Shown piece after piece: positions 8,181 through 62,103 of a stretch of 62,742 bases of DNA. How positions within the stretch are numbered: position 1 is the stretch's first letter; the number at the start of each line of letters is the position of its first letter. This DNA is from Melioribacteraceae bacterium (GTDB lineage Bacteria; Bacteroidota; Ignavibacteria; Ignavibacteriales; Melioribacteraceae): assembly GCA_021740785.1 (NCBI GenBank), contig JAIOZI010000024.1, positions 1 through 62,742 of the forward strand, read 5' to 3'. The translations under genes and the position numbers were made by a program. Below the pieces are notes generated by a model. It was not told where the DNA came from. It saw nothing but the letters and a program-made list of their open reading frames with translations, and did not search any database.

Positions 8181-8618
8181 CCGTGTTTTTTAAGGGACGT
8201 ATAGAGAGAACAGATAAATAAATTTAGCTCAAATTCATTCATAAATCTTTTTAATGCTCTCCACTTTATACCCAACTTTTTCTTCCACAGCTTTTTTTAA
8301 TTCTGCCGGTTTTACTTTTGTTTTATCGTATTCAACAAAAGCGATACCGGTTTGATAAGTTGATGTTGCGCTGATAACACCGTCTTGGGATATAAGAGCA
8401 CAATCAACAGATTGTTCGCAGCCGGTGCACGTCATTCCTTCAATTTCCATTTCCGCCTTTTGGATATTATTTGATTGAACAACAATATTATTTCCTGATT
8501 CAGTGAAAAAAGCTTTGGAGTAATACGGAAATGAAATTAAAACAATTGCAATTACTGCAACAATCCATAAGAATTCTTTTGTATTGATAAAGCTTTTCTT
8601 CGCAGGACTTTCTTCATC

Positions 8619-8635
8619 CCTGCCGGTCGGGCAGG
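8619..8635. repeat. 17-bp palindromic insert that breaks merTP
   Basis: The arms CCTGCC and GGCAGG flank GGTCG. The element is much richer in G+C than its surroundings. In the merTP reading direction it lies between a GAA codon (8638-8636) and a GAT codon (8618-8616). Its length is not a multiple of three, and its excision joins ECACE to DEESPAKK, which is what an intact MerTP looks like. The same core, TGCC/GGCA, recurs at 8150-8170 and 59590-59605. Confidence 0.75.
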
Positions 8636-8674
8636 TTCGCAAGCACATTCTATATCTTCCTGTTTCTTTGGCTT

Positions 8675-8692
8675 ACCCCGCAAGGCGGGATT
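8675..8692. repeat. In-frame palindromic insert in merT (encodes NPALRG)
   Basis: Eighteen bases with arms CCCGC and GCGGG around AAG (8677-8689) encode NPALRG in merT. MerT proteins usually pass directly from the third helix to a KPKK-type stretch and the cytoplasmic cysteines. Taking the six codons away leaves AFYNAYSKKPKKQEDIEC, which fits the family better. The insertion preserves the frame, unlike the one 40 bp downstream. It was recognised by comparison with remembered family sequences, not by an alignment. Confidence 0.55.
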
Positions 8693-8895
8693 CTTCGAAT
8701 ACGCATTATAAAATGCATAACCCAGGATAATAGCTGTAAATGCTATAAAATAAGGGCGTAAAGGATCAAGAAAAGAAAATGTTGATGCAATTCCGCTTAA
8801 ACCGGCGAGAACAGCAAGTACAGGTGTTATGCAGCATAGTGACGCCAATACCGCCGTAACAATTGCACTGTTTTGAAATAATTTATTTAATTTCA

Positions 8896-9318
8896 TTATT
8901 TGTCTCCATCGTTGACTTTATATTCAATTACTTCAAGGATAGGACATTCATCTGCGGAGACTTCTTCTTGAATACATTGATGGACAAGTTTTGTTAATAC
9001 CTTTTTCATGTTCATTAAATCTTTGATTCTATTTTCTATATCGGTCAGCTTGTGTTCGGCTAAATGTTTTACATCCCCGCAGGTCGCTGATGACTCAATT
9101 TTTAGATTCAGCAATTCTTTTATCTCTTTTAATGTAAAGCCTAGTTCTTTAGCCCGCACTATAAATTTTAGTCTTTTTAAATCAGTATCATCATAAACCC
9201 GGTAGCGGGATTCTTTTCTTTTCGGTTTAGGCATCAATTTAATTTTTTCATAATAGCGTAGTGTTTCTACATTTACACCGACTGATTTCGCTATTTCACC
9301 AACTTGATATTCTTTCAT
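8896..9318 (-). CDS. merR: MerR mercury-responsive transcription regulator
   Basis: A 140-residue MerR-family activator/repressor. The winged helix begins VGEIAKSVGVNVETLRYYEK, and a dimerisation helix follows. Cys80, Cys115 and Cys125 match the spacing of the three Hg(II)-binding cysteines of MerR (82, 117 and 126 in Tn501), so it senses mercury and not zinc, copper or redox stress. I chose ATG at 9318. A longer reading frame to 9378 would run through the operator and promoter. It is the first gene of the operon and its stop overlaps the merT start, so it is likely autoregulated with the structural genes from one promoter. Confidence 0.95.
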   Translation of the reverse strand: MKEYQVGEIAKSVGVNVETLRYYEKIKLMPKPKRKESRYRVYDDTDLKRLKFIVRAKELGFTLKEIKELLNLKIESSATCGDVKHLAEHKLTDIENRIKDLMNMKKVLTKLVHQCIQEEVSADECPILEVIEYKVNDGDK

Positions 9319-57349: not shown

Positions 57350-57533
57350 CCGGTTCAAACTTTTGCAATTTATCGATCACGAAAAAGTTTTATAAGATAA
57401 ATTAGCCGGTTCAAAAAAGTATATTCTAAAAAATGCTGTCCGGTTTTGATTTGAAATCAATAGAACATTCCTGGAACTTATCTTTTTAGATCCGGCTCAT
57501 AAATATTTGAAACAAAAAGAGGGTGGAGGTAAA

Positions 57534-59807
57534 GTGAAATTTTTAACTTTCCTTTTCGTGATCCTAACATACCTTTGCACAACCATTACTGCACAGCAAA
57601 GAGCAATCATCAATCGTTACGGCGACATTAAATTGGTCGACGGCACTGTTGAAGAAATCAAACAAATGATCAAAACCGACCCGGAGATTCAAAAACATAT
57701 CAATCCTACAGTTTCATTTTCTGATGAACTTGAAGATACAATCGACTTCAATAATGAATTCAGCGTTCTGGAATATCCAGTATATATTAAACCATTGGAG
57801 CATATATATCAATTCTACAAAGCGCCGGTTGATGTACGCTTGGTTTCTGTTGGGTTTTTAACAATTCATAATCAATCTACTTTTAGCGGATCTACTGCGG
57901 GTGAAATAAAACTTGTTAAGCCCAATTGGAATTTAGATCAATTTCTATCTTTTGAAAGATCTACAAGATTCGGTTATTACCCTGTTGATGGAGTTGAGTT
58001 GTTTTATACAACAGCATTTCAAGAGGATCCATTAACCACCGGCGATTGGGTTAGCGTTAATACTGAGTTTCCCGACCCGCCTTTCGGGGAAGATGTCTGG
58101 GCATTAGACGGTTACGGAGCAACAGTACCTGTTGTAGAGGATGAATTGACGTGGGTAGATTTTCATTGGTTGTTCGAGCCGGAGTTTGATAAAAATGAAT
58201 GCTTCGGAGTATCTGTGAAGAATGTTTCAGGTTATGATCCTGAAGCGTATCCCTCAATGTTTTTCGGTTTACGTGCTTACCCTGATTATTCCTCGGCAGC
58301 TATGAAATTTTACTGTTTCGGGAGAGTCGATGCAATTGATCCGGGCTGGTGGATTCAGCCCGGTTATGTTTGGGATTTTGTTTTTATAGTGAATATACTT
58401 GGAAACATACCGCCTAAAATTGAAAACGTAACTCAACTAGAAACCACTCTTTCTGCCGATGCACAGCAGGTTCATACAACTGTTACCGATCCGGATGACG
58501 GAAATGCGACCGGTATTCAATCAGTTCAACTTTTTTACAGCACAAATGATGAAGATTATATTCCAATCACAATGATTTCTTCCGGGGATGAATATACTGC
58601 ATCAATTCCCTACCAGTCTAAAGGAACCAATGTAAGCTACTTTATTAAAGCAATCGATGTTGATGCAAATGAAACAATTTCCAAAACTTATCATTTTTCA
58701 TTTTTTCAACCGACATGTGAAAACATGCTTGTTTTCAATGGCTACAGAAAGCCCAACGGTTATCCTCAAGATTATTATTTCGGTCATGATGATTTAGAAA
58801 ACGAAACTCCCATTCAGTGGGAACATGATATTTTGTACAATGCGCCACTAACCGATTCGCTGCTGAGCAGCTACAAAAATGTTATCGAAATAACAACACG
58901 CGGACCCATTTTCGATAATCGTGAAGTGATACGAAATTGGCTGGAAGATTCACCCGATCATAATTATATGCGGGCGGGTGATGAATGGTCGGATTATGGT
59001 TGGCATCTCTCAGGGTCTTTTTTTGAAGAAGGTTCTTTCGAATATGATGTGCTTGGAATAAGCAGGTTTAAAGACAGCCGTATAGATCCCGGGATCGATA
59101 CGACTCCAATGATACTAAATGAAGATTCAATGCTGGGAGCTGCTTTATTGGAGAAGATGCAATCATTAGTAGATGCAGGCTATAATATTGAAGAATTTAT
59201 TTATCATCCGTCATTCACAGTAAATTATCTCAATAGTATTGACATTGTATTGTTCAATACGGAGGTTGATACAATTTTCCGAATAAATTATAACGGGATT
59301 TTGTCCGTGGCCTATTCTCGCGTTTTACCTACTGGAAACAAAATTGTTTATTTTACTTTTGATCCTCTTTCACTGCGCTCTAAACCTGATAGCTACTGGT
59401 TCGGATTCAGCGAATCAGCCCCGCATGTAGAAGCATTAAAATGGTTCGGAATTGATGTAGTAACAACAACGAAAAGTGAAGATGATAAAATTGCTGCGGA
59501 ATATAAACTATACCAAAACTATCCCAATCCTTTTAACCCGACAACCACAATTAAATATTCAATTCCTAACACTGTAGGGGACGAAAACCTGCCTGCCGGC
59601 AGGCAAGGTGTTCGTCCCCTACTAACAATTACGATGAAAATCTACGACATCCTAGGACGCGAAGTAAGAGCCCTGGTAAACGAAAAACAAAAACCAGGAA
59701 ACTACGAAATCGAATTCGATGGATCCGAATTTGCTTCCGGTGTTTACTTCTACCAATTACGGAGCGGTGAGTTTATTGATACGAAGAAATTTGTTTTGTT
59801 GAAGTGA
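57534..59807 (+). CDS. T9SS cargo protein A (secreted, type A sorting domain)
   Basis: A 757-residue secreted protein. I chose GTG at 57534 because GGAGG lies six bases upstream and the signal peptide (FLTFLFVILTYLCTTITAQ) then starts properly; a TTG at 57507 is less likely. An N-terminal domain unique to this pair is followed by an Ig/Fn3-like domain (IENVTQLETTLSADAQQVHT), a domain beginning CENMLVFNGYRKPNGYPQD with an alpha/beta, flavodoxin-like look, and the sorting domain from NYPNPFNPTTTIKYSIP to the end (GVYFYQLRSG). The sorting linker has a nested palindromic insert (LPAGRQGV). The function of the N-terminal and middle parts is unknown. It should pass through Sec and T9SS and be exposed on the surface. 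Confidence 0.9.
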   Translation: MKFLTFLFVILTYLCTTITAQQRAIINRYGDIKLVDGTVEEIKQMIKTDPEIQKHINPTVSFSDELEDTIDFNNEFSVLEYPVYIKPLEHIYQFYKAPVDVRLVSVGFLTIHNQSTFSGSTAGEIKLVKPNWNLDQFLSFERSTRFGYYPVDGVELFYTTAFQEDPLTTGDWVSVNTEFPDPPFGEDVWALDGYGATVPVVEDELTWVDFHWLFEPEFDKNECFGVSVKNVSGYDPEAYPSMFFGLRAYPDYSSAAMKFYCFGRVDAIDPGWWIQPGYVWDFVFIVNILGNIPPKIENVTQLETTLSADAQQVHTTVTDPDDGNATGIQSVQLFYSTNDEDYIPITMISSGDEYTASIPYQSKGTNVSYFIKAIDVDANETISKTYHFSFFQPTCENMLVFNGYRKPNGYPQDYYFGHDDLENETPIQWEHDILYNAPLTDSLLSSYKNVIEITTRGPIFDNREVIRNWLEDSPDHNYMRAGDEWSDYGWHLSGSFFEEGSFEYDVLGISRFKDSRIDPGIDTTPMILNEDSMLGAALLEKMQSLVDAGYNIEEFIYHPSFTVNYLNSIDIVLFNTEVDTIFRINYNGILSVAYSRVLPTGNKIVYFTFDPLSLRSKPDSYWFGFSESAPHVEALKWFGIDVVTTTKSEDDKIAAEYKLYQNYPNPFNPTTTIKYSIPNTVGDENLPAGRQGVRPLLTITMKIYDILGREVRALVNEKQKPGNYEIEFDGSEFASGVYFYQLRSGEFIDTKKFVLLK
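59574..59622. repeat. Nested palindromes in the sorting-domain linker of cargo A
   Basis: The outer arms GTAGGGGACGAA (59574-59585) and TTCGTCCCCTAC (59611-59622) are inverted repeats. Between them lies TGCCTGCC/GGCAGGCA, a perfect 16-bp palindrome (59590-59605). Paralog B keeps the outer palindrome but not the inner one, so A has 21 extra bases, adding seven residues and keeping the frame (LPAGRQGV replaces F). Confidence 0.85.
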
Positions 59808-59847: not shown

Positions 59848-62103
59848 ATGAAAAGAATATTATTTTTTATTTATTTAGTTCTACTTGCAGCTACAATTAC
59901 TGCGCAGCAAAGAGCAATCATCAATCGTTACGGCGATATTAAATTGGTCAACGGCACAGTTGAAGAAATCAAACAAATGATCAAAACCGACCCGGAGATT
60001 CAAAAACATATTAATCCGCCGGTTATGTTTAGAAATGAATTTGAAGATACTCTTGGATTCGACAATCAATTTCAAATCCCTCCATTTCCGGTTTTCATAA
60101 AGCCATTAGATTATATTTATCAATATTTCCATGCGCCGGCAAATATAAAGCTGGTTTCGGTTGGATTTTATACAATTGATGATCCTCCCGGTTTTAGCAA
60201 TTGTGATGTTTCAGTAGGAGAACTAAAAATTGTAAATACTAACTGGAATGATGAACAGTTCCTTTCTTTTGAGAGATCAACCAGGTTCGGTTACTATCCG
60301 GTTTATAATGTCGAGTACTTTGACTTAACTGCTTTTCAGGATGATCCGTTAGCTATGGGCGATTGGATAAGCGTTAACGATGAATTCACCGATCCGCCGT
60401 TCGGTGAAGATATTTGGGCAATTGATGGATATGGGGCAGCATTTCCCGTTGAAGATGATGTTTGGAACTGGTTGGATTTCGAAAATTTATTTGAACCGGA
60501 ATTCAATAAAGAAGAATGTTTCGGGATTTCAGTTAAAAACGTATCCGGTTATAATCCTGAAACATACTGTACTGAGTATTTCGGTATAATGGCTTACCCG
60601 GATAATAGAAACGCGGGAATGAAATTCTACACTTTTGGAAGAATTAATAATGAAGATGCAGGTTGGTGGATTCAGCCGGATTATGTTTGGGATTTTATTC
60701 TAATAGTAGATATTCTTGGAAACATCCCGCCAAATATTGAAAATGTAACTCGATTACAAACAACAATTTCTACTGAGGAACAACAGGTACACGCAATTGT
60801 AACAGATCCCGATATCGGTGGCGCTGCAGGTATTCAGTCCGTTCAACTTTTCTACAGCATTAATGATGAAGAATATATTCCAATCACAATGATTTCTTCC
60901 GGGGATGAATATACTGCATCAATTCCCTACCAGTCTAAAGGAACCAATGTAAGCTACTTTATTAAAGCAATCGATGTTGATGCTAATGAAACAATTTCCA
61001 AAACCTATCATTTTTCATTTTTTCAGCCGACATGTGATAATCTGCTTATTTTCAACGGTTATCTAAAACCAAACGGTTATCCGCAAGATTTTTATTTCGG
61101 TCATGATGATTTTGAAAACGAAACTCCCCTTCAGTGGGAACATGATATTTGGTACAATGCGCCACTAACCGATTCGCTACTGAGCAGCTACAAAAATGTT
61201 ATCGAAATAACAACACGCGGACCCATTTTCGATAACCGTGAAGTGATTAGAAATTGGCTGGAAGATTCACCCGATCATAATTATATGCGGGCGGGTGATG
61301 AATGGTCGGAATACGATTACCCCATTTTCAGCCAGGAAATAGATCCCGGAACATTTGAATATGACATTTTAGGAATAAGAGAAAGAACCGATTGCAGGTT
61401 AAAATTATCCTATGATACAAATCCTTTAACAATTAAAAGATACTCGCTTCTTGGCGCCGCACTTTATGAAAAAAAATTAGAATTGATATCTCAAGGTTAT
61501 GATGTAAGTCAATTCATTTATCATCCTTCGGGTCTGGTAAATTATCTTAACAGCATTGACGGTGTTTCATTTTATGACAGTGCAGATGTTTTTGTTCAAA
61601 ATAATGATGAAGGTTCTTATGATTTTGGAGGATCTCACGTATTGCCCACGGGTAACAAAATCGTGTATATCACTTTTGATCCCTTATCAATTCAATCAGA
61701 ACCATTTAATTACTGGTTCGGATTCAGCGAATCAGCCCCGCATGTAGAAGCATTAAAATGGTTCGGGATTGATGTAGTAACAAAAACGAAAAGTGAAGAT
61801 GATAAAATTGCTGCGGAATATAAACTATACCAAAACTATCCCAATCCTTTTAACCCGACAACCACAATTAAATATTCAATTCCTAACACTGTAGGGGACG
61901 AAAATTTTCGTCCCCTACTAACAATTACGATGAAAATCTACGACATCCTAGGACGCGAAGTAAGAACCCTGGTAAACGAAAAACAAAAACCAGGAAACTA
62001 CGAAATCGAATTCGATGGATCTGATTTTGCTTCGGGTGTTTACTTCTACCAATTACGATGCGGTGAGTTTATTGATACGAAAAAATTAGTTCTTTTGAAA
62101 TAG
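59848..62103 (+). CDS. T9SS cargo protein B (paralog of A)
   Basis: A 751-residue secreted protein with signal peptide MKRILFFIYLVLLAATITAQ and the same domain order as cargo A. The start ATG has GAGGG 12 bases upstream. It lies 40 bp after A. N-terminal 35 residues, the Ig/Fn3-like end and the next domain, and the C-terminal sorting domain are almost identical to A, while other parts are much less alike. The sorting linker has the 28-bp palindrome (61891-61918) without the inner insert. It is presumably exported by T9SS like A. The pair may have different targets, given the diverged regions. Confidence 0.9.
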   Translation: MKRILFFIYLVLLAATITAQQRAIINRYGDIKLVNGTVEEIKQMIKTDPEIQKHINPPVMFRNEFEDTLGFDNQFQIPPFPVFIKPLDYIYQYFHAPANIKLVSVGFYTIDDPPGFSNCDVSVGELKIVNTNWNDEQFLSFERSTRFGYYPVYNVEYFDLTAFQDDPLAMGDWISVNDEFTDPPFGEDIWAIDGYGAAFPVEDDVWNWLDFENLFEPEFNKEECFGISVKNVSGYNPETYCTEYFGIMAYPDNRNAGMKFYTFGRINNEDAGWWIQPDYVWDFILIVDILGNIPPNIENVTRLQTTISTEEQQVHAIVTDPDIGGAAGIQSVQLFYSINDEEYIPITMISSGDEYTASIPYQSKGTNVSYFIKAIDVDANETISKTYHFSFFQPTCDNLLIFNGYLKPNGYPQDFYFGHDDFENETPLQWEHDIWYNAPLTDSLLSSYKNVIEITTRGPIFDNREVIRNWLEDSPDHNYMRAGDEWSEYDYPIFSQEIDPGTFEYDILGIRERTDCRLKLSYDTNPLTIKRYSLLGAALYEKKLELISQGYDVSQFIYHPSGLVNYLNSIDGVSFYDSADVFVQNNDEGSYDFGGSHVLPTGNKIVYITFDPLSIQSEPFNYWFGFSESAPHVEALKWFGIDVVTKTKSEDDKIAAEYKLYQNYPNPFNPTTTIKYSIPNTVGDENFRPLLTITMKIYDILGREVRTLVNEKQKPGNYEIEFDGSDFASGVYFYQLRCGEFIDTKKLVLLK
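61891..61918. repeat. Perfect 28-bp palindrome in the sorting linker of cargo B
   Basis: GTAGGGGACGAAAA is followed at once by its exact reverse complement. It encodes the GDENFRPLL stretch between IKYSIP and KIYDILGREV, where most sorting domains have a short linker. It may be a mobile palindrome tolerated in this linker. Confidence 0.8.

Follow-up and report, generated by a model that had tools for sequence, protein, structure and literature searches.

Recurrent REP-like palindromes in one codon phase within loops of type IX secretion sorting domains from three genera of one bacterial family

Repetitive extragenic palindromic (REP) sequences with a GTAG tag, as portrayed by Di Nocera et al. 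(2013, PMC3733652), carry the unpaired tag at one end and exhibit loop variants on one stem; intragenic copies are reported there for a variety of unrelated proteins, insertions being perhaps neutral in flexible linkers or loops. The same paper refers to rickettsial palindromic elements (RPE), i.e., palindromic repeats residing in frame within protein genes. Here we describe GTAG-ended palindromes in sorting domains of the type IX secretion system (T9SS; type A, PF18962 and TIGR04183), starting from two tandem genes at the end of a 62,742-nucleotide stretch from a Melioribacteraceae bacterium (GenBank assembly GCA_021740785.1, contig JAIOZI010000024.1, positions 1 to 62,742, forward strand; hereafter the window). 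REP-like palindromes probably reached the loops of these domains several times and then multiplied as the domain was copied.

Like the GTAG REPs of PMC3733652, the present elements are short GTAG-ended palindromes forming families with different stems, some of them intragenic, with a link to REP-associated tyrosine transposases (RAYT), and the same stem may bear short or long, partly self-complementary loops. They differ in that GTAG pairs with a terminal CTAC, yielding full palindromes, whereas the tag of GTAG REPs is unpaired and restricted to one end. Measured against that definition, multicopy palindromes of 20–40 bp are present (25, 30 and 33 copies in the genomes G000, G106 and G019 introduced below, some long forms reaching 46–52 bp), as are loop-length variants on the same stem; an unpaired one-end tag was not found with a search pattern demanding both ends. 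Since tag, hairpin and loop variants are shared but the tag is paired, the elements are REP-like rather than GTAG REP members by that definition. Rickettsial elements occur in many unrelated proteins and some of them are longer, whereas here the same loop of a secretion tag is used again and again. In-frame insertion into protein genes is common to both. Intragenic GTAG REPs are likewise distributed over many unrelated genes in PMC3733652, whereas 36 of the 39 coding copies found here occupy two loops of one domain type, the first of which is lengthened by palindromic DNA. As in the REPtron/RAYT systems (TnpA-REP; PMC8266576 and PMC2817692), where GTAG hairpins are tied to HUH tyrosine transposases, RAYT-like open reading frames (ORFs) are present; known REPs flank the transposase gene, while here the palindrome, or its apparent remains, lies inside some RAYT-like ORFs, after the HxH motif. 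GTAG REP-like elements inside genes are thus of an already known kind. The recurrent, phase-locked use of sorting-domain loops is new; within the open literature searched, no paper was found that places REP-like elements in the sorting domains of T9SS proteins.

The two genes, cargo A and cargo B, lie in tandem at the window end and encode T9SS type A sorting domains scoring above the cut-offs (PF18962/TIGR04183), with the element located in the linker between TTIKYSIP and MKIYDILG. The features are as follows:

57507–59807, plus strand: cargo A, a 766-aa protein with a T9SS type A sorting domain (TIGR04183, E=4.7e-9; PF18962, E=3.7e-9)
59848–62103, plus strand: cargo B, the 751-aa tandem paralog of A (TIGR04183, E=8.6e-10; PF18962, E=2.1e-9)
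59520–59795, plus strand: sorting domain of A, 276 nt, exceeding the common 225–228 nt owing to the element
61837–62091, plus strand: sorting domain of B, 255 nt
59574–59622, unstranded: long 49-bp GTAG...CTAC palindrome in the linker of A, sequence GTAGGGGACGAAAACCTGCCTGCCGGCAGGCAAGGTGTTCGTCCCCTAC, coding for VGDENLPAGRQGVRPL
59590–59605, unstranded: inner perfect 16-bp palindrome TGCCTGCCGGCAGGCA within the element of A
61891–61918, unstranded: short perfect 28-bp GTAG...CTAC palindrome GTAGGGGACGAAAATTTTCGTCCCCTAC in the linker of B, coding for VGDENFRPL
59395–59758, plus strand: tract of A near-identical to B outside the element (from reading the alignment; approximate end points)

The 28-bp palindrome of B ranks first in the list of the window's inverted repeats, and at 4^-14 per position a perfect palindrome of this length would arise by chance about 0.0002 times in 62.7 kb. 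The element of A occupies the same codon and has 21 additional bases, i.e., seven codons, both frames remaining open; besides these bases, a single substitution distinguishes the two (TGTT in A, TTTT in B). None of 200 shuffles folded as well as either element (z -8.10 and -6.68). An earlier note on this DNA had proposed a perfect 28-bp palindrome in B and a frame-preserving 49-bp version in A, and both were confirmed at their coordinates; its view of A as B's palindrome interrupted holds for the inner 16-bp palindrome, but not strictly for the outer arms, which differ by the substitution. Around the elements (~59395–59758) A and B are separated by few substitutions, whereas windows just upstream are 44–62 % identical. 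The element is thus the main difference within a recently shared tract, which, to judge from the alignment, probably arose by gene conversion or recent copying. Further tracts of 86–98 % identity (57606–57706 and ~58593–58993) are embedded in much less similar parts, a patchwork suggestive of repeated gene conversion. Chance or an assembly artefact was rejected as an explanation, since the window contains a pair of copies, identical short ones occur elsewhere and other genera have elements in the same loop.

The genome containing the window (G000; 4.85 Mb, 115 contigs, designated by C-numbers) encodes at least 150 PF18962 domains (150 of 221 candidates scored, all 150 read), the linker being measurable in 149 of them. 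It comprises 10 residues in 119 domains and at least 15 residues in 22. In 12 of these 22 long linkers the insert starts with GTAG, the arms being different, and in 12 of the 22 (11 of them GTAG) letter shuffles support an inverted repeat (p<0.01). Arms of the type GTAGGGGACGAAAA reside in C2, C4, C58, C99 and twice in C68; GTAGGGACAAGTC occurs as short form in C2 and as long form in C58, GTAGAGACGACTC in C79, GTAGAGCGAGAT in C58 and GTAGAGCGAAAC twice in C79, in both cases without the CTAC end. Four other long linkers harbour partly palindromic inserts of a different kind, likewise in frame: CCCTCACCC...GGGTGAGGG twice in C17 (L092/L093) and TGTCATTTCGA...TCGAAATGACA in C21 and C84 (L099, L153); the inverted repeat alone was not significant in one member of each pair (0.11 and 0.07). 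In the remaining six no inverted repeat stands out clearly, the shuffle fraction exceeding 0.2 in five and being 0.03 in one. Identical short copies exist elsewhere, and three further carriers were found beyond the 150 domains, namely in C55 and at the contig edges of C91 and C94, the domain at the C91 edge having the short form. In C58, four neighbouring genes (open frames of 973–1040 codons) contain four different linker inserts, three of which are GTAG palindromes. Removal of the element leaves a linker remainder of about 29, 26, 23 or 19 nt (counted by hand).

The same situation was encountered in two further genera of the family, represented by G106 and G019. Genomes were searched with the pattern GTAGRG...CYCTAC, which asks for both ends and would thus miss one-ended copies, and with a reversed control; for G000, copies without an open frame of more than 150 codons were counted as outside. 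G000 yielded 28 places (control 8), of which three non-palindromic ones were removed (two with 6–7 of 12 outer pairs, the third by eye), leaving 25: 10 in sorting-domain linkers, one in a RAYT-like ORF (C106:27818) and 14 outside. From the 33 places in G106 (control 12; one contig, 127 domain matches, one being a repeat of the contig end), two were removed by eye and one as duplicate locus, and the 30 kept comprise 13 in linkers and 17 outside. The first and last ~11 kb of this contig (C1) repeat each other (9906 = 3741322; 6419 = 3737835). G019 gave 35 places (control 11), of which one was removed by eye and one for having 8 of 12 pairs; the 33 remaining are distributed over the first loop (10), the second loop (3), RAYT-like ORFs (2, one assigned by eye) and outside DNA (18), an open frame of 167–489 codons reaching the element at its edge or before the first Met in 3 of the latter. 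In total, 88 exact palindromes were obtained, 33 of them in the first loop, 3 in the second loop, 3 in RAYT-like genes and 49 elsewhere; 57 of the 88 are 28 bp long, and copy number is low next to classic REPs. The second loop, between the FD and SGIYFY strands, is filled in L220, L254 and L258 of G019 (e.g., VTFD-VGANRRFALP-SGIYFY) by GTAGGG...CCCTAC palindromes with arms that differ from the first-loop ones and pair with a one-base offset; L220 and L258 additionally hold a first-loop copy or an altered form of one. In the linkers of L272 and L273 (G106 and G407), GACGTGAAACGTGAGACGTC may represent a further kind of repeat using this loop.

In their exact form, the arms of A and B (GTAGGGGACGAA...TTCGTCCCCTAC) are rare: among 391 genomes of the class they were detected in 4, all belonging to one family. 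Named contigs with the A/B element derive from Ignavibacteria, including Ignavibacteriales and Melioribacteraceae, and from Gordonia sp. ABSL1-1. In this unrelated actinobacterium (L055, L059, L060, L061), GTAGGGGACGAA-NN-TTCGTCCCCTAC repeats measure 26 bp, one being longer and some closely spaced.

Assuming 8.5 % intergenic DNA (from this window alone) and 221 or 149 domains according to candidate counts (200 assumed for G019), linkers were enriched in G000 (10/25, P 3e-12; 5/13, P 1e-6 with distinct arms only, as sorted by eye), in G106 (13/30, P 7e-17; distinct arms 4/12, P 2e-5) and in G019 (10/30, P 7e-11; distinct arms 2/18, P 0.04); these P values show an excess, not its cause. Counted by distinct arms, the excess relative to intergenic DNA is still large in G000 and G106 and weak in G019. 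All 39 coding copies in the three genomes, i.e., 36 in sorting domains and three in RAYT-like ORFs, are read in the GTA codon phase, with VGDENFRPL, VETGYIPSL, VGTSRDLSL, VGANRRFAL and others as resulting peptides. Of the three phases, one is blocked by the stop codon TAG contained in GTAG. In G106, 0 of 10 copies with a TGA stop in the GTA phase of their arms lie in linkers, versus 13 of 20 with other arms (Fisher 0.001), a result that is suggestive at most, since this is one family with non-independent copies. An AlphaFold model of B's domain, of modest quality (mean pLDDT 71.5, 4 sequences), places the insert (residues 46–54) between strands 35–42 and 55–63, and the second loop between strands 80–87 and 94–102; as modelled, both element loops would fit permissive turns of the sorting domain. 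A search among solved structures gave a single chance match (E=0.43) and no usable structure. The comparison of families and codon phases across sorting linkers of this genome and its relatives, as proposed in the earlier note, revealed recurrent palindromes in the GTA phase, and the idea advanced there of the sorting linker as a safe target is well supported by 33 exact copies in three genera, all in one codon phase. A restriction of linker palindromes to A and B, with the element core absent elsewhere, is contradicted by the other linkers and by further occurrences of the core CCTGCCGGCAGG.

This exact inner core is present at four places in G000, all four within GTAG arms and three of them between genes. 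Looser inner-type palindromes without GTAG arms exist in C59 (CTTGCCTGCCGGTAGGCAAG), C35 and C37 and at window position 8619 (within the G000 sequence examined), so that the proposition of an inner core that never stands alone had to be dropped; it applies to the exact CCTGCCGGCAGG only. The palindrome at 8619, AACCTGCCCGACCGGCAGG, resembles the inner type and is situated in the overlap of two ORFs (8552–8896 and 8235–8648, minus strand), which by eye look mer-like, one encoding a membrane protein and the other a protein with a CxxC metal-binding motif. The assertion that the insert of A is of the same type as one in merTP thus finds a counterpart in a similar palindrome, though one without GTAG arms and in genes assigned to mer by eye. 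Twelve hand-picked long forms (10 of 22 with at least 40 bp from the three genomes, plus two of G073) were compared with short forms selected from the respective genomes. Seven equal a short form plus 18–21 bases after base 14 or 15 of 28, with no or one other mismatch; they comprise GTAGGGGACGAAAA and GTAGGGACAAGTC (G000), GTAGAGACTTGAT and GTAGAGATTTGAT (G106), GTAGAGACGTTGCAT (G019) and GTAGAGGCGYACCAT (G073). One further long form has two mismatches, and four fit no short form well (3–8 mismatches). The nested architecture hence recurs in several arm families and four genera, the added modules being alike, by eye, across arms and genera (CTTGYCCGCC...GGCG; TTTACCCG...CGGG). L040, on the minus strand near position 1585, has a doubly nested GTAG element that encloses two TTTACC..CCGTGG modules in tandem.

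These forms bear on the direction of the change between A and B. The earlier note took the paralogs as before and after states of one insertion, i.e., a 16-bp TGCC-GGCA element would have entered the 28-bp palindrome of A after duplication, leaving B untouched. Inner-type palindromes free of GTAG arms (C59, C35, C37 and 8619) and the central position of the extra module in several arm families are in favour of such a course, and so is the reported targeting of REP sequences by insertion sequences (PMC1525189). However, the sorting domain in C55, belonging to a different gene, has the long form of A including its odd base (CAAGGTGTTCG), which was not seen in the other long copies read; further long copies are intergenic (C7, C38, C54, C106), and A and B also differ by the substitution inside the element. 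Since C55 shares both the long form and the odd base, A is probably not a fresh insertion into the state of B, and the long form is probably older than the near-identical A/B tract. We therefore consider insertion from B to A improbable, while the nested architecture is a recurrent trait and nesting may have taken place at an earlier time, inner-type palindromes being found alone as well. Two routes to the paired forms come into question: insertion of an independent palindrome at the centre of a hairpin, or loss of the tip from a composite element. For A and B, a loss in B would be slightly simpler than a gain in A, and conversion from other copies would give the same picture; the 21-bp difference is most simply attributed to a central hairpin that was acquired or lost in the linker, or to conversion from another copy.

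With respect to a candidate mover, nine RAYT-like ORFs were read that share a PNHxH[GA]I-type motif. In four of them (L038, L043, L256, L343) an exact GTAG palindrome is located in frame in the loop after the motif, four (L305, L336, L341, L342) display remnant-like peptides at this place as judged by eye, and one (L331) has neither; L263 contains an exact copy in a C-terminal part recognized by eye as RAYT-like. This sample is biased, since L038, L043, L256 and L263 were found via the element itself. Of the 30 loci found by hidden Markov models (L303–L332), 12 had no PNxxH motif in a long frame, or a chance one, and were left out. Among the ORFs read with other PNxxH motifs, no exact GTAG copy was found. 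GTAGGGGACGAAAATTTTCGTCCCCTAC is common to linkers and to the RAYT-like ORF of C106 in G000 (NF047646, E=2.7e-10, 40 bits, cut-off 80), and GTAGGGACAAGTCGCGACTTGTCCCTAC to a RAYT-like ORF and linkers in G407 (L343 and L337). In the cases read the palindrome is carried inside these ORFs. Of the 102 positions adjoining GTAG in 51 non-linker copies, 82 are pyrimidines, which hints mildly at a preference for certain sites. RAYT is no more than a plausible mover of the palindromes.

Taken together, the elements may be viewed as REP-like miniature elements with complementary ends (GTAG/CTAC) and many arm sequences, which exist in a short form of ~28 bp and often in a long form of 40–52 bp (typically 46–49) with a second hairpin at the centre. 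Initial movement would probably be due to an HUH transposase of the RAYT/TnpA-REP type acting on a single-stranded hairpin. Different arm families would have reached the loop between the first two main β-strands several times, and in one relative (G019) the second loop of the same domain as well. The GTA phase keeps the frame, and a peptide of 9 or 16 residues would be tolerated, presumably with no effect on secretion, because it only lengthens a turn. The elements would then multiply as the sorting domain is copied among secreted proteins, A and B carrying one and the same element, long in A and short in B, at a single ancestral position.

Several arrivals are favoured by the arm diversity in C58, the same arms between genes, the second-loop arms and the unequal linker remainders. 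A single ancient arrival, in which one palindrome entered one domain and its arms drifted during domain copying, complementarity being kept by hairpin-templated repair, could account for the near-constant left junction (IPN or IPxx, then GTAG), for the right flank QTKLIVYD common to many linkers in G029, G106 and G407, for the linker of L283, whose two arms deviate in the same way from the common ones (GTAGTGG...CCACTAC), and for the one core that dominates the first loop of G019 and is seen only there. Nevertheless, the same arm families also lie between genes (GTAGGGGACGAAAA in G000; GTAGGGACAAGTCG and GTAGGGACAACTCA in G106), the second loop of three G019 genes has different arms, two of these genes also having first-loop copies (one altered), the first loop also accommodates the differently ended CCCTCACCC (C17, two) and TGTCATTTCGA (C21, C84), the repeat being non-significant in one of each pair, and the linker remainder without the element differs in length; we thus regard a single arrival as rather unlikely. 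Maintenance of the hairpins for a function in the mRNA or DNA of secreted-protein genes, e.g., in pausing or in recombination that swaps sorting domains, would agree with their strong folding, with their recurring location towards the 3' end of many genes and with the near-identical A/B tract around the linker, but it appears very improbable, given the plain 10-residue linker in 119 of 149 own domains, the wide variation of element sequences and sizes and the altered arms of several copies in genus g4.

A number of observations weigh against repeated arrival of mobile elements as the preferred reading. The tag is paired, contrasting the unpaired one of described GTAG REPs, and the excess over intergenic DNA may stem from longer survival under coding constraint rather than from more arrivals. 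No orthologous pair of empty and filled linkers was found within the genus of G106 (G106 and G407 are 98–99.9 % alike at the compared loci, G029 is distant). No further copy of the CCCTCACCC and TGTCATTTCGA inserts was found in 273 kb of own DNA, so that their mobility is at most putative. In G019, seven of ten first-loop copies have one identical core, with an eighth one base off, and among the places kept this core is confined to linkers. Matches to RAYT are weak, the curated cut-off being reached by none of the five own ones, and G029 is without RAYT match, yet has 16 GTAG places (control 8). Across 57 genomes, GTAG counts follow RAYT counts (rho 0.55), but so do control counts (rho 0.32; difference 0.28, uncorrected for kinship). 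The single dominant core implies that domain copying explains most of the number in the first loop of G019; many linkers of genus g4 share flanks and altered copies, and together with the G019 core this indicates that a large part of the number came about by domain copying. A tree of sorting domains built from 153 rows and 72 of 96 columns, with 145 of the 150 own domains and eight added carriers (the C91 edge and SpSt-1166 left out), had 88 of 150 inner branches unresolved and was too weak for counting arrivals.

Going beyond repeated arrival followed by copying with the domain, one may speculate that the loops are true landing sites, where GTAG...CTAC elements enter or replace each other at a fixed nucleotide position. 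We consider this doubtful; if true, only elements open in the GTA phase could live there, the sorting domains, at least 100 per genome, would be an archive of past palindromes, and the loop of the element's own RAYT-like transposase would be another such site. Irrespective of this, an exposed loop in a domain present in at least 100 copies per genome offers a way for tiny mobile palindromes to live numerously in protein genes. The many phase-locked copies are usable for studying the site choice of REP-like elements and the gain or loss of central hairpins. While published intragenic REPs, according to PMC3733652, are spread over unrelated proteins, one domain dominates here, and the natural series of insertion peptides at a single position of the T9SS sorting signal shows what this signal tolerates.

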